Of a stretch of 64,000 nt of DNA, positions 46,659 through 52,067 are shown one piece after another. The stretch comes from Acidobacteriales bacterium 59-55 (GTDB lineage Bacteria; Acidobacteriota; Terriglobia; Terriglobales; Acidobacteriaceae), in contig MKSV01000007.1 in NCBI GenBank assembly GCA_001897435.1, positions 1,364,001-1,428,000 of the forward strand, in the 5' to 3' direction. A program made the translations under genes and the position numbers. The notes beneath the pieces were generated by a model, which saw nothing but the letters and a program-made list of their open reading frames with translations, did not search any database and was not told where the DNA came from. Position 1 is the first letter of the stretch. Each line of letters opens with the position of its first letter.

Positions 46659-46802
46659 CGTGCCTCCCTGATCGACCTCATACAGGCTGACGCACGAGGC
46701 CGCCCGGTCTTACAGTCTGGGATGACGGCAGGTGCAATCGAGGCATTTGCGCTCCGCGCAAACGCCGCAAACTTGGGTCAACTCGGTTGTGCTTCTTTGT
46801 CT

Positions 46803-47414
46803 TCACCTTTCCTTGCTTTTTTCTCTCCCCGTCCGTCTCATACTCGCTGCTACGGAATTTACCGGAAAGTCGTGGCTCGTCAGCGGCTTCGGGTACGCAG
46901 GCCATGTGCGAACGAGGCGACTGAGGAGTGCGGCGGACCCGGCAGCGGCGAGCGTAAACGGCAGAACGACATCGAGCGGGAACCACAGTCCCGTATGTAG
47001 CAGCAGCGGATACATCGCCAAAGCGACTCCGGGCGGGTGGTAGGCGCGAATCAGGTTCATTACGGCGAACGCCAGGACAGCGGCGAGAATGGCCATGACA
47101 GAGCCGCGCGCTACCAAGCTGAGCAAAACCCCGGTGGCGGCTCCCGCGACGGAGCCGGCAACGACGGCCCAAGGTTGGGCAACGGAAGCCTCCGGCAGGA
47201 CCAGCAGGAGCGTGAGAGTCGCGCCGAACGGCGGCACGAGAAACAGTCCGATGCGGTTGTGCTTGAGGCCGGCGAGAACGGCGAACATTAGAAGAACCCA
47301 CAGATAATGCGCGGCATTCCCGCGGAAGGTCGTTCCCCAGGAGCAGAGGACGCATCTACAGAGATTGCGCACACTCATTCGATTCACGATTGGGGACCCG
47401 CGCTGCGAACACAT
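46803..47414 (-). CDS. HPP-family integral membrane protein
   Basis: About 203 residues with several hydrophobic segments (LWVLLMFAVLAGL, LVPPFGATLTLLLVLP, VVAGSVAGAATGVLLSLVA, AILAAVLAFAVMNLIRAYHPPGVALAMYPLLL, VVLPFTLAAAGSAALLS). The YHPPG motif marks the HPP family, whose function is poorly known; some members transport nitrite. The start is uncertain: ATGs at 47414 and 47378 are both possible, and a frame to 47465 would overlap the sigma gene. It is downstream of the sigma factor on the same strand. Confidence 0.75.
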   Translation of the reverse strand: MCSQRGSPIVNRMSVRNLCRCVLCSWGTTFRGNAAHYLWVLLMFAVLAGLKHNRIGLFLVPPFGATLTLLLVLPEASVAQPWAVVAGSVAGAATGVLLSLVARGSVMAILAAVLAFAVMNLIRAYHPPGVALAMYPLLLHTGLWFPLDVVLPFTLAAAGSAALLSRLVRTWPAYPKPLTSHDFPVNSVAASMRRTGREKSKER

Positions 47415-47437: not shown

Positions 47438-48034
47438 TTAGTGCTTGCAGGTGCAGTCGATGCACTGGTGGGTGGCGCAGGTTCCGCAGATGGCGGTGAG
47501 CTGTTTGGCGACGGCTTTGCGCGCGCGATGGAGGCGCACGCTGGCGTTGTTCGCCGTGGTGTGCTGTGCGTGGGCGAAAGATTCAACCGAGTCGCCGCGG
47601 AGATCGACCTGCTCGATGGCTGCGCGGTATTCCGGCTTGAGGGCCTGCACGGCTTCGTTGACGCAGGCGCAGACCTCGGACTTGATCTCCGGCTCGTAGC
47701 TTTCCTTCCATTCGGCTGCCCACGAGTTCATTGCGCGGGAGTCGGAGGCCTGTCGGCGGTAGTGGTCGACGATGGCGTTGCGCAGAATGCGATAGAACCA
47801 GGCGACGGAACTTTCCGCTTCGCGCAGTTGCGCACCGCGCTCGATGGCCTTGAGATAGGCCGCCTGGAGAATGTCCTCGGCGGCGGGATCGTCGACACGG
47901 CGGCGCAAAAATTGCAGGAAACGGCTGTGCTGCCCGGCAAGGCCGGCGACTGTGTCTCGGGTTGTGGGCGCGTGCGAAGTCATGGCGAAGACCGCCGGGA
48001 AACGCGGCGCGTGGCCGCGCTGCCCGGATTCCAT
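47438..48034 (-). CDS. CorE-like ECF sigma factor with cysteine-rich C-terminus
   Basis: About 198 residues. Sigma region 2 is seen at FLQFLRRRVDDPAAEDILQAAYLKAIER and AWFYRILRNAIVDHYRR. Region 4 is near LKPEYRAAIEQVDLRGDSVESFAHAQHTTANNASVRLHRARKAV. After it comes a cysteine-rich tail, AICGTCATHQCIDCTCKH. Tails of this kind in CorE-type (ECF44) factors bind copper and control activity without an anti-sigma protein. Its ATG at 48034 lies 6 bp past the stop of the small Cys-rich gene; a start at 47983 is also possible. Confidence 0.85.
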   Translation of the reverse strand: MESGQRGHAPRFPAVFAMTSHAPTTRDTVAGLAGQHSRFLQFLRRRVDDPAAEDILQAAYLKAIERGAQLREAESSVAWFYRILRNAIVDHYRRQASDSRAMNSWAAEWKESYEPEIKSEVCACVNEAVQALKPEYRAAIEQVDLRGDSVESFAHAQHTTANNASVRLHRARKAVAKQLTAICGTCATHQCIDCTCKH

Positions 48035-48039
48035 TGATG

Positions 48040-48147
48040 TTACGCGTGCTGGGCATGGGCCGTCGTCGCGCACGTGCAGTCGGTGCAGGGGCAGGGAGCG
48101 CAGGAACAGGTTTGGGTTGCGTTGGCGGGATCGGTTTTCTGTTTCAT
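48040..48147 (-). CDS. 35-residue metallothionein-like peptide
   Basis: A short gene coding MKQKTDPANATQ followed by the six-cysteine core CSCAPCPCTDCTC and a His-containing tail (ATTAHAQHA). The spacing C-x-C-x2-C-x-C-x2-C-x-C is that of a metallothionein-type metal cluster. GGAGAA lies 6 bases before the ATG. The stop is 5 bp before the sigma-factor start, so the two are probably translated together. The DCTC motif recurs at the C-terminus of the sigma factor, so the peptide may buffer or hand over the metal that the sigma factor senses. Confidence 0.65.
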   Translation of the reverse strand: MKQKTDPANATQTCSCAPCPCTDCTCATTAHAQHA

Positions 48148-48379
48148 CTTCGATTCTCCTTTTCCTCTGCACGTGCTGACGCGCCAGGACGGAGAACCTT
48201 ACAGTTGAAGGGGCCGCGGATGCGAATCTCGTGTAGATTCAAAGCCCGCGTTACTAGGGCTTAGTCCTCTAATCGTCGATTCCACGGTTACAGTCCAAAG
48301 CTGTCGCAACACTGCCCCGGATTGGTCCTTTAAAGGTTACATGCCACGCACGACAGTTGCCGCCTTATATTGCCGATCT

Positions 48380-48868: not shown

Positions 48869-49000
48869 GGCCCCGGGAAATTCGGCAAAGGGACGGGACG
48901 CTCTCGAACAAGTAGCGATGAGGCTCTCAATTGAGAATGAATGCTTCGATCAGCGCAGTAGGCACAACGGCACGAGATTCCTGAGGAGACTGTGTCCGCA

Positions 49001-49207
49001 ATGAAAAACTCCAATAGCCCGCCCGCAGGGCTCCTGCACTTTCATGTGTGTTTGCATTGCCGCAGTCCCTTCCGTAGAGAAGAAGTGGAAGGTCGGGTAC
49101 ATACAACAGGGCTTTTTGTCTGCCCCAAATGCGGCAAAGAAGGGCCGTTGAACATCGAGATCCATGAGATCGACGGTGACGAATCTCAAATGCTCAAGAC
49201 CGAATGA
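49001..49207 (+). CDS. Small zinc-ribbon protein
   Basis: A 68-residue protein with two CxxC knuckles, CLHCRSPFRR and CPKCGKEG, forming a likely zinc ribbon, and an acidic C-terminus. The ATG at 49001 is used; a GTG at 48992 is too close to GAGGAG. It converges with the LysR gene, whose stop is 1 bp away. It is perhaps a metal sensor or an RNA/DNA-binding adaptor; no family is recognised. Confidence 0.65.
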   Translation: MKNSNSPPAGLLHFHVCLHCRSPFRREEVEGRVHTTGLFVCPKCGKEGPLNIEIHEIDGDESQMLKTE

Positions 49208-50322: not shown

Positions 50323-50413
50323 ATTTCCCGCGACACATGGAATCTCATAGGCAACACGTCTTCGGAGCCAATTGCGTTCTATAACACTCCGAACTGTTGA
50401 ACGAGAGGTGAGT

Positions 50414-50767
50414 ATGAGTCTGCGTTTCTCATCGGAATCGGAGGGTGCGAAAAGCACGCAAGGCAGCTTTAGAAACGAAAGCGAAAGCTCAAGCATTCTG
50501 AAGGACGTAATCTTTCTCCGCCTTCCCGAAGTGAAGGCCGTGACAGGCCTATCCAAGACAACCCTTTACACTTTGATACGGGAGAAAAGTTTCCCCGCAC
50601 CTGTCCAGGTTGGACCGCGCGCTGTGGCATGGGTAAGGTCCGAAGTGAAGCAATGGGCGGCCAATCGTGTCCTCGCATCCCGAACTGCTGTGTACGTGGC
50701 AAGCGGAAAGCGGATGCCACACTCGGTTCGTCCAGCGCCGAAGACATCATCGAGAAGATCGGCTTAG
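50414..50767 (+). CDS. AlpA-family regulator / excisionase
   Basis: A 117-residue protein with a winged HTH of the AlpA/MerR-like type (FLRLPEVKAVTGLSKTTLYTLIREKSFPAPVQVGPRAVAWVRSEVKQWAANRV, about residues 34-86). The N-terminus is Ser-rich and the C-terminus basic. AlpA proteins act as excisionases or activate integrase expression of P4-like elements. Its end overlaps the 3' end of the convergent integrase gene by 4 bp. The start at 50414 follows GAGAGGTGAGT. Confidence 0.88.
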   Translation: MSLRFSSESEGAKSTQGSFRNESESSSILKDVIFLRLPEVKAVTGLSKTTLYTLIREKSFPAPVQVGPRAVAWVRSEVKQWAANRVLASRTAVYVASGKRMPHSVRPAPKTSSRRSA

Positions 50768-51993
50768 GCCGCTAATGCTTGTCTGCCCCTTGCTAATTGT
50801 TCATCCAGATAGTCAGCCCACCACTGCATCATCGCTGTGCGCTGCTTCAAATACTTGGCGTGGTTGTAGGCCCCTTTAACCTTGTTGCGTTGGACATGGG
50901 CGAGCTGCATCTCAATCCAATCTTCCTCAAACTGACCGGAGTCATATAAGACCGTTGACGCAACTCCCCGAAAGCCATGACCAGTCATTTCGCCCTTATA
51001 CCCAAGACGGTAGAGTGCAAACAGAATGGTGTTGTTGCTCATGGTCTTTCCTTTATCATTCGCGCCGGGAAAAACTTTCTTGCCTCTGCCTGTGCGCCAA
51101 TGCAAGATCCGGAGGATTGCCACAGCTTGCGTAGGTAGCGGCACGATATGAGGACGCTTTTTCTTCATACGCTCCGGTGGAATCTCCCATCGCGCTCTGT
51201 CCAGGTCAAACTCCGGCCACTCAGCCTCAATGAGTTCCGATGTTCTGACCCACAGGTAAGCCATGAGTTGCAGAGCATAGATCGTGAGAATATCGCCCTC
51301 GTACTCCCACATCTTCAGCAGCAACGCGGGCAGGTCTTTTGCCTCTACACGCGCGAAATTTTCCTCTTCCGCTGGTTTGAGAACGTCACGCGGTTTGAAG
51401 TCCGCTGCGGGATTACGTGTCGCCCGTCCATTCGCAATGGCATAGCGGAAAATCTGACCGATGGTTTCGTGGGCACGTTTAGCAACGTCGCGCGCACCGC
51501 GTGCCTCAATCGGCAGGATTAGTTCTCGAACATCAGCGGCGGTAATGGCGTCGATGAATTTGTGGCCGATCACAGGAAAAACGTCGGCCTCCAGACGACG
51601 CATGACTGTATCGACATGACGAGGAGACTTGCCAACAGACCACCATGCCCACCATTTGCGGCCAATCTTCTCAAAGCTGTTTTCCGCTTGCCGCAGCCGG
51701 TCGTCAGTTTCTTTTTGCTTGGCCTCAGATTCCGACCTGCGTTCCGCCATCGGATCGGTGCCAGCTGCCAATGTCTTGCGTGCCGCGAAGTGCAGATCGC
51801 GAGCGTCCTTGAGCGAGACGACCGGGTATTCGCCAAATGCCATCATCTTCTCTTTGCCGTCGAAGTAGTACCGCCAGCGCCATAGCTTCGCACCGGAAGG
51901 AGCGATCAGGAGACAAAGGCCGCCGCCATCGGTCATTTTGTACGGTTTGCCGGCAGGCTTCGCGTTTTCAATCTCCCGGATTGTGAGTGACAT
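50764..51993 (-). CDS. int: P4-type tyrosine integrase of the ICE
   Basis: A 409-residue site-specific recombinase. The N-terminal arm-binding DUF4102 domain (IENAKPAGKPYKMTDGGGLCLLIAPSGAKLWRWRYYFDGKEKMMAFGEYPVVSL) is followed by a core-binding domain and a catalytic domain. Visible residues include R in WVRTSELIEAEW, HGFR in MTGHGFRGVAST, H in LAHVQRNKVKGAYN and the nucleophile Y in GAYNHAKYL. GGAGG precedes the ATG at 51993. It starts 196 bp from the tRNA end and most likely acts on the 16-bp core at 1893 and 52194. Confidence 0.94.
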   Translation of the reverse strand: MSLTIREIENAKPAGKPYKMTDGGGLCLLIAPSGAKLWRWRYYFDGKEKMMAFGEYPVVSLKDARDLHFAARKTLAAGTDPMAERRSESEAKQKETDDRLRQAENSFEKIGRKWWAWWSVGKSPRHVDTVMRRLEADVFPVIGHKFIDAITAADVRELILPIEARGARDVAKRAHETIGQIFRYAIANGRATRNPAADFKPRDVLKPAEEENFARVEAKDLPALLLKMWEYEGDILTIYALQLMAYLWVRTSELIEAEWPEFDLDRARWEIPPERMKKKRPHIVPLPTQAVAILRILHWRTGRGKKVFPGANDKGKTMSNNTILFALYRLGYKGEMTGHGFRGVASTVLYDSGQFEEDWIEMQLAHVQRNKVKGAYNHAKYLKQRTAMMQWWADYLDEQLARGRQALAA

Positions 51994-52008
51994 CGTGAGC
52001 CTCCAAAA

Positions 52009-52067
52009 TTGCGGGTACACTCGATACCCGCAATTTGTACTCACTATACCCGCATCCGTACCCGCAA
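52009..52067. repeat. Integrase arm-type sites, right end
   Basis: Four copies of the motif TACCCGCA(A): inverted at 52009-52017 (TTGCGGGTA), direct at 52025-52033, 52047-52054 and 52059-52067. The first two make a palindrome with 9-bp arms and a 7-bp centre, 16 bp before the integrase start, so binding may also repress the int promoter. The left end has one copy at 1965-1973. Confidence 0.75.

Follow-up and report, generated by a model that had tools for sequence, protein, structure and literature searches.

What could a peptide of 35 residues, patterned by cysteines, be doing directly before the gene of an ECF sigma factor whose own tail is rich in cysteines? The question arises on the minus strand of the DNA analysed here, a stretch of 64,000 nt referred to below as the window. 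A first-pass annotation had described this pair, and its coordinates and motifs proved correct: the micro-ORF (MKQKTDPANATQTCSCAPCPCTDCTCATTAHAQHA) starts with ATG behind the ribosome site AAAAGGAG, and the sigma tail indeed reads CGTCATHQCIDCTCKH. From 5′ to 3′, a promoter box, the micro-ORF, a hairpin, the sigma gene, an HPP-family gene, a sigma relic, a second box and copA follow one another, with 56 nt between the micro-ORF and the sigma gene.

48176-48204, minus strand: promoter box CTGTAAGGTTCTCCGTCCTGGCGCGTCAG, putative autoregulated CorE-like sigma promoter (-35 TGTAAG, 16 nt, -10 CGTC)
48040-48147, minus strand: ORF of the 35-aa cysteine-rich micropeptide, a proposed metallothionein-like effector (CxCxxCxCxxCxC)
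47995-48027, minus strand: hairpin in the segment that separates the micropeptide stop from the sigma start (z only -0.85 in the window)
47438-47983, minus strand: CorE-like ECF sigma factor gene, 181 aa (domain matches, alignment A2)
47663-47671, minus strand: CxC motif of the sigma factor, residues 105-107, in the sigma2-sigma4 linker (alignment A2)
47447-47488, minus strand: C-terminal cysteine-rich domain of the sigma factor, CxxC-x4-CxxCxC, residues 166-179 (CorE spacing)
46803-47414, minus strand: HPP-family (TM_HPP) membrane protein gene, 3′ of the sigma gene (Pfam, E 3e-18)
46710-46784, minus strand: relic of another CorE-like sigma gene (its 3′ end), ELTQVCGVCAERKCLDCTCRHPRL and stop (aligns with the 3′ ends of copA-linked sigma genes)
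46687-46715, minus strand: second promoter box CTGTAAGACCGGGCGGCCTCGTGCGTCAG, ending 28 nt 5′ of the copA start codon
44226-46658, minus strand: copA, P-type ATPase of the Cu type, carrying YHS and heavy-metal-binding domains at its N-terminus (TIGR01511, E 1.3e-181)

The sigma factor is CorE-like (former ECF44), as its domains, its linker CxC and its tail all fit. It matches Sigma70_r2 of Pfam (E 3e-10) and TIGR02937, sigma70-ECF, of NCBIfam above the respective cut-offs, and Sigma70_r4_2 of Pfam at E 6e-4, which is below the cut-off of that model. Its start, the ATG at 47983, recurs in the homologue L001 (91% identity); an alternative ATG at 48034 would give a protein of 198 aa. An AlphaFold model of the protein was set aside (pLDDT 66.9, pTM 0.41).

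In Myxococcus xanthus, CorE and CorE2 (ECF44, in part now ECF238) are likewise ECF sigma factors with a C-terminal cysteine-rich domain, dependent on Cu in the case of CorE and on Cd/Zn in that of CorE2. In the available portions of the CorE literature, the cysteines of CorE occupy positions 181, 184, 189, 192, 194 and 206, only four of which are absolutely conserved among 21 CorE-like factors (PMC3107203), and CxC in the sigma2-sigma4 linker is given as a CorE-like feature (PMC8999054). As far as these portions go, the first five cysteines are spaced identically to those of the window sigma and both proteins carry the linker CxC (PMC3107203, PMC8999054). The sixth, Cys206, has no counterpart in the window sigma. 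Cys189, in the part of the report available to us, is the main residue of CorE activation by copper and is kept in 11 of the 21 factors, several of the strains that keep it having copper genes nearby (PMC3107203).

We followed these traits through 61 sigma genes obtained from a scan of genome contigs (10 loci), the window's own genome, an even draw over the phylum and the genomes to which the first eight loci belong, with flanks of about 4 kb on each side where the contig allowed. The even draw covered 396 genomes, 46 of which held a sigma gene at E 1e-25 or better. It accounts for 51 of the 61 genes, own genome included; the other 10 were found by similarity to the window sigma. The set excludes three short fragments, which stem from L092 and from the split sigma gene of L105, as well as L104 (E 8e-28, with another tail), the weak relatives L009 and L010, and L124-L152, which are duplicates of genomes already counted. 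C105 and C107 are invariant in the 10 rows of alignment A2, and the linker CxC was found by motif scan in 58 of the 61 genes. The tail pattern CxxC-x4-CxxCxC occurs in all of them, with or without a micropeptide. Since all 61 also keep the Cys189 equivalent, the window sigma, besides being CorE-like, most probably belongs to the copper type and would then depend on copper as CorE does. The equivalent of Cys189 is missing in nine of ten plasmid-borne sigma genes (Alphaproteobacteria and one Nitrospirota record), and no micro-ORF accompanies any of the ten (8 plasmid records examined, of 31 with a match).

To be scored as a micro-ORF, a frame had to have an ATG with a Shine-Dalgarno match, 15-60 aa, at least five cysteines and at least three CxC/CxxC pairs, and to end between -215 and +50 nt of the sigma start. 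Such a frame accompanies 27 of the 61 sigma genes, where 0.01 would be expected from 100 dinucleotide shuffles per locus, which rules out a chance ORF. Applied to the 365 remaining ORFs that reach 200 aa in these loci, the definition retained a single case, which is a sigma tail. The proportion is 21/51 for the evenly drawn genes and 6/10 for those found by similarity. At the remaining 34 loci no micro-ORF was scored, L081 being counted among these although a cysteine-rich frame without ATG and SD is present there. On the sigma tree the micro-ORF label needs 7 changes, compared to a mean of 21.8 when shuffled, and it is present in all five rows closest to the window. The first-pass annotation had suggested a search for tiny cysteine-rich frames beside related sigma genes and had named a lack of conservation as what would speak against the pair; the frame turns out to be conserved.

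The window's own genome contains two further CorE-like sigma genes. One of them (L056, C7:853196-853267) has its own micropeptide, MTTYICPCGADCPCGSDCACPSSN; the other (L055, C8:297288-297824) has none and carries a box 5′ of copA. At L105 (G329 C2:3585139-3585664) a sigma gene of the micropeptide type is split in two frames, and the micropeptide and box look intact.

The 27 micropeptides measure 22-51 aa and contain 6-11 cysteines (17-33% of residues). All contain CxC, only eight have any F, W or Y, and beyond CxC and CxxC their sequences have little in common. The window peptide, with six cysteines, is a shortened form, differing in length by 15 codons from that of L001. When the codons of five close pairs were summed, pS was 0.39 and pN 0.11 (0.34 and 0.11 for window versus L001), so that the micro-ORF codons of close pairs are under purifying selection. 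The traits of metallothioneins are there, namely small size, a wealth of cysteines in CxC/CxxC and few aromatic residues. The window micropeptide found no match in Pfam or NCBIfam at E up to 1, nor did the seven of the 27 that were scanned, for which reason we do not file the peptides under a described metallothionein family. A search of PDB sequences with one micropeptide and a tblastn search of plasmids with one micropeptide returned no match.

A profile (A3) built from 25 of the 27 micropeptides was run over the 396 genomes and gave 14 places at E up to 1e-3, 13 of them at sigma loci; as A3 misses known members, the window's own included, its silence elsewhere is weak evidence of absence. 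One contig, L008, is titled Verrucomicrobia, and occurrence in a second phylum is not claimed on this ground. A draw over the phylum around the L008 genome gave, besides L008 itself, only matches at places of the acidobacterial draw. For this reason we claim no spread beyond Acidobacteriota, and the title of the contig is probably wrong.

The pattern TGTAA-N17-CGT starts 49-105 nt 5′ of the micro-ORF ATG in 26 of the 27 loci (expected from shuffles, 0.02), and in 20 of the 27 it ends in CGTC. The coupling of a metallothionein-like micropeptide to a CorE-like sigma factor, as first proposed from the window alone, thus holds both as a gene pair (27/61) and through a single box in all but one of these loci. 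Among the 34 loci without a micro-ORF, the strict box lies at or just 3′ of the sigma end in 14, 13 of which have copA downstream. In several of these copA-type loci, the TAA stop codon of the sigma gene forms part of the -35 element. In seven of the 20 peptide-less loci with copA downstream, the strict box is missing at this position; at L081 the box stands upstream of the sigma gene. Box-like sites before copper genes, copA among them, are also described for CorE in the available portions of its literature (PMC3107203, PMC8999054).

We then scanned 16 chosen genomes with a strict form of the box (MCTGTAAK-N16-CGTCWG), using the reversed pattern as control. There were 22 matches in 14 of the 16 genomes, the reversed pattern giving 4. 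Of the 22, 13 lie before a micropeptide, seven before copA and one at the 3′ end of the L073 sigma gene, and one is unexplained. No match was found in G233 and G398, which both bear a sigma gene. G049, G370, G382, G103 and G119 have a single strict box each, before the micropeptide that adjoins the sigma gene. In the window's own genome the four strict boxes belong to two micropeptide operons and two copA genes. A plainer pattern showed no enrichment in that genome (5 matches, 5 in the control), its fifth match lying inside an unrelated gene; it is the placement of these boxes and not their count that matters. A looser pattern (GTGTAAK..CGTCW) was not discriminating, with 24 matches versus 33 for the reversed control. 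In G036 and G195, a box of this looser pattern stands about 50 nt 5′ of the sole TIGR01511-type ATPase gene found.

The window carries both outputs, a micropeptide operon and a box 5′ of copA. A P-type ATPase lies within 4.3 kb in 1 of the 27 micropeptide loci, the window itself, versus 25 of the 34 others (Fisher p 1e-8), the flanks being 3 kb for L001-L008 and also shorter in some other loci, e.g. L077, L092, L101, L114 and L115. Loci of the micropeptide and copA kinds differ only in the position of the box and in their neighbourhood. The exclusion is suggestive and unproven, because the tree provides only five supported independent contrasts; a proof of mutual exclusion by phylogeny was not reached, as with n = 5 such pairs the effect is not significant allowing for descent. 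The idea that the peptide replaces copA in the cell could be ruled out: all 38 genomes checked, with or without a micropeptide, matched the model of Cu-type P-type ATPases (37 over cut-off), so the peptide would add to efflux, not replace it. At L076, a CopZ-like ORF (MTCRAC motif, by eye) with a cysteine-rich tail occupies the micropeptide position 5′ of the sigma gene.

We next consider the segment between the two cistrons. A hairpin with z of -2 or below follows the micro-ORF stop in 22 of the 27 loci (mean z -3.35), while among 44 peptide-less loci such a hairpin precedes the sigma gene in 10 (mean z -0.76). The difference has a Mann-Whitney p of 7e-8, for stretches that differ, being the 75 nt after the micro-ORF stop in the first case and -70 to +5 of the sigma start in the second. 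In the window itself the hairpin, which is GC-rich, has a z of only -0.85 and is therefore weak evidence. The Shine-Dalgarno match averages 6.3 nt for the micro-ORF and 2.7 nt for the sigma gene. Together with the hairpin, this stronger ribosome site suggests that more peptide than sigma factor is produced.

An operon headed by a cysteine-rich ORF and a hairpin might also be read as a cis-acting, metal-sensing leader, in which the nascent peptide would bind copper or stall for charged tRNA-Cys and the hairpin would relay this to sigma translation or termination. The nearest regulatory precedent, going by the available part of its report, is the CruR uORF, where a small cysteine-containing ORF also stands first in a copper-linked operon, regulation takes place between the cistrons, and copper acts on the nascent CXXC peptide (PMC9426467). 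CruR, according to the same portion, belongs to DUF2946, carries a RAPP arrest motif at its C-terminus and acts in cis through Rho termination (PMC9426467). The RAPP motif is absent by eye from all 27 micropeptides, and the seven scanned of the 27 had no Pfam match and hence no DUF2946. Peptide length and cysteine count, moreover, vary widely, the hairpin stems inspected have no U-run behind them, and no alternative pairing was found.

Three exceptional loci bear on the same point. In G036, a micropeptide with its box (L179, C6:161104-161175) lies 131 kb from the sigma gene of that genome and has a weak hairpin (z -0.97), which speaks for a product acting in trans and against a purely cis-acting leader. 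Another peptide lies 214 nt from the sigma gene, without a strong hairpin. At L165 (G397 C43), a match to the box alone near a contig end, one of the 13 counted above as preceding a micropeptide, led to a new cysteine-rich ORF of 53 aa with a ribosome site, and no sigma gene is seen before the contig ends; a hairpin-like stretch (by eye) follows this ORF. In the light of these loci, we consider a cis-acting leader unlikely.

The first-pass annotation had also pointed to a DCTC motif shared by peptide and sigma tail, and had raised the possibility that metal is handed over. The shared motif is real in the window, and yet only three of the 27 micropeptides contain DCTC. It is thus incidental, and a direct hand-over of metal to the sigma factor is unsupported. 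More generally, a dedicated partner of the sigma factor could deliver or remove metal or mimic the tail, as a metallo-anti-sigma factor or metallochaperone. Such a role would suit the adjacency in 27 of 61 loci and the CxxCxC that 22 of the 27 micropeptides have in common with the sigma tail; in the available part of the survey, moreover, no linked anti-sigma factor is reported for the 21 CorE-like factors (PMC3107203). However, what is common is a type of cysteine spacing alone. The tail motif is identical in sigma factors with and without a micropeptide, and the peptides are far more variable in sequence than the sigma tails. We judge such partnership improbable. The rarity of DCTC, the peptide 131 kb from its sigma gene and the box before copA in 13 of the 34 loci without a micro-ORF speak against hand-over or mimicry, and for these reasons the evidence points to the micropeptide as an output of the sigma factor in the first place, any effect on the metal of the sigma factor being a probable consequence.

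Taken together, we put at about 0.68 the probability that the micropeptide is a dedicated effector of a CorE-like, probably copper-responsive sigma factor, within a metal-sponge feedback loop. Our own analysis provides the conservation, the codon selection, the box placement and the hairpin in most loci, from which we infer expression, metal and regulation. On the best reading, a copper sigma operon that activates itself produces a surplus of the peptide, which acts as a metallothionein-like effector and, by trapping metal, should also damp the sensor. Metal would bind the C-terminal cysteine domain of the sigma factor, as in CorE, and the activated sigma factor, to judge from the box positions, would recognise TGTAAG-N16-CGTC and transcribe its own operon. 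The first cistron, with its strong ribosome site, would yield a CxC/CxxC peptide of 22-51 aa that should bind Cu(I) in thiolate clusters in the manner of metallothioneins, and the hairpin after the first stop and the weak sigma ribosome site would hold peptide output well above that of the sigma factor. By taking up metal, the peptide would shield the cell and lower free metal, so that the sigma factor would be switched off. The net result would be a positive autoregulation closed by the negative feedback of a metal sponge. In sister sigma loci, it is the efflux pump gene copA that the same box precedes. That the peptide buffers the metal or competes for it, as also proposed in the first-pass annotation, is plausible. 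CorE, in the available part of its description, requires Cu(II), and Cu(I) inactivates it (PMC8999054), so that direct competition of a Cu(I) sponge for the sensor site may not occur.

Ten neighbour genes, from 10 of the 27 micropeptide loci, were scanned and no metal-related family was found among them, which favours the effector reading; they comprise two Orn/Lys/Arg decarboxylases, a VWA protein, a menaquinone-synthesis protein, a DeoC-type aldolase, an acyltransferase, a MarR regulator, a photolyase-related protein and two without a match. A tiny cysteine peptide under a sigma factor might in principle be the precursor of a modified, methanobactin-like copper chelator. No modification enzyme was recognised among these ten genes or among the scanned neighbours in the window, and we regard this origin as extremely unlikely.

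The preferred effector reading has parallels in known systems. Pairs such as SmtB-SmtA place a metal sensor beside a small cysteine-rich metal sponge under its control, SmtB being an ArsR-family repressor. The present system would work like a metallothionein under a metal sensor, with the difference that the sensor is a sigma factor seemingly activating its own operon, and that the peptides have 22-51 aa. Like the micropeptides, MymT-type small copper metallothioneins are short, CxC-rich and poor in aromatic residues, and Cu(I) binding is expected of both. The micropeptides differ from these in their regulator, and no sequence relation was seen for the seven scanned in Pfam and NCBIfam or for the one searched against PDB sequences. 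The available portions of the CorE reports name, as targets or candidates, a multicopper oxidase, CopB, CopA, an efflux protein and a heavy-metal-associated protein; a micropeptide does not figure there. Nor was a micropeptide accompanying a CorE-like sigma factor described in the literature searched, which covered few subscription journals.

An acidobacterial branch of the CorE-like factors thereby gains a likely dedicated target, and a set of metallothionein-like micropeptides emerges through synteny and promoter code instead of sequence similarity. Very short cysteine-rich genes can evidently escape family libraries, as illustrated by the seven scanned of the 27 without a Pfam or NCBIfam match. 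A two-gene operon of an activator and what may be its own metal trap would also be a simple test bed for the reset of a metal sensor. Only tentatively, and at odds well short of even, do we extend this to a class of copper responses in bacteria: sigma factors whose main or only own target would be a metal sponge of 22-51 aa in their own operon, forming a self-limiting loop in which the sensor would turn on both itself and its trap, with peptide and pump as alternative outputs of one promoter code, and an unannotated metallothionein-like set of Acidobacteriota that may act directly on the metal site of the sigma factor.

The window finally bears traces of its own history. The strip 46784-46710, together with the box that follows it, aligns with the 3′ ends of copA-linked sigma genes, and the last codons of this relic also serve as the copA promoter's -35 element. 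It is likely that a unit of micropeptide, sigma and HPP genes came to stand before an older sigma-copA unit, and that the sigma gene of the latter was lost save for the part carrying the copA promoter. Conceivably, a TTG serves as start codon for translation of the strip into a cysteine peptide of 23 aa. The HPP-family gene 3′ of the sigma gene recurs in L003 and L004, thus in three loci with the window. An ORF of 71 aa at 48992-49207 (plus strand) has two CxxC pairs and only weak zinc-ribbon matches. Near the copper locus, the ORF at 50764-52044 (minus strand), which we take to be integrase-like, and that at 50372-50767 (plus strand), presumably a small AlpA-like regulator, hint at a genomic island.
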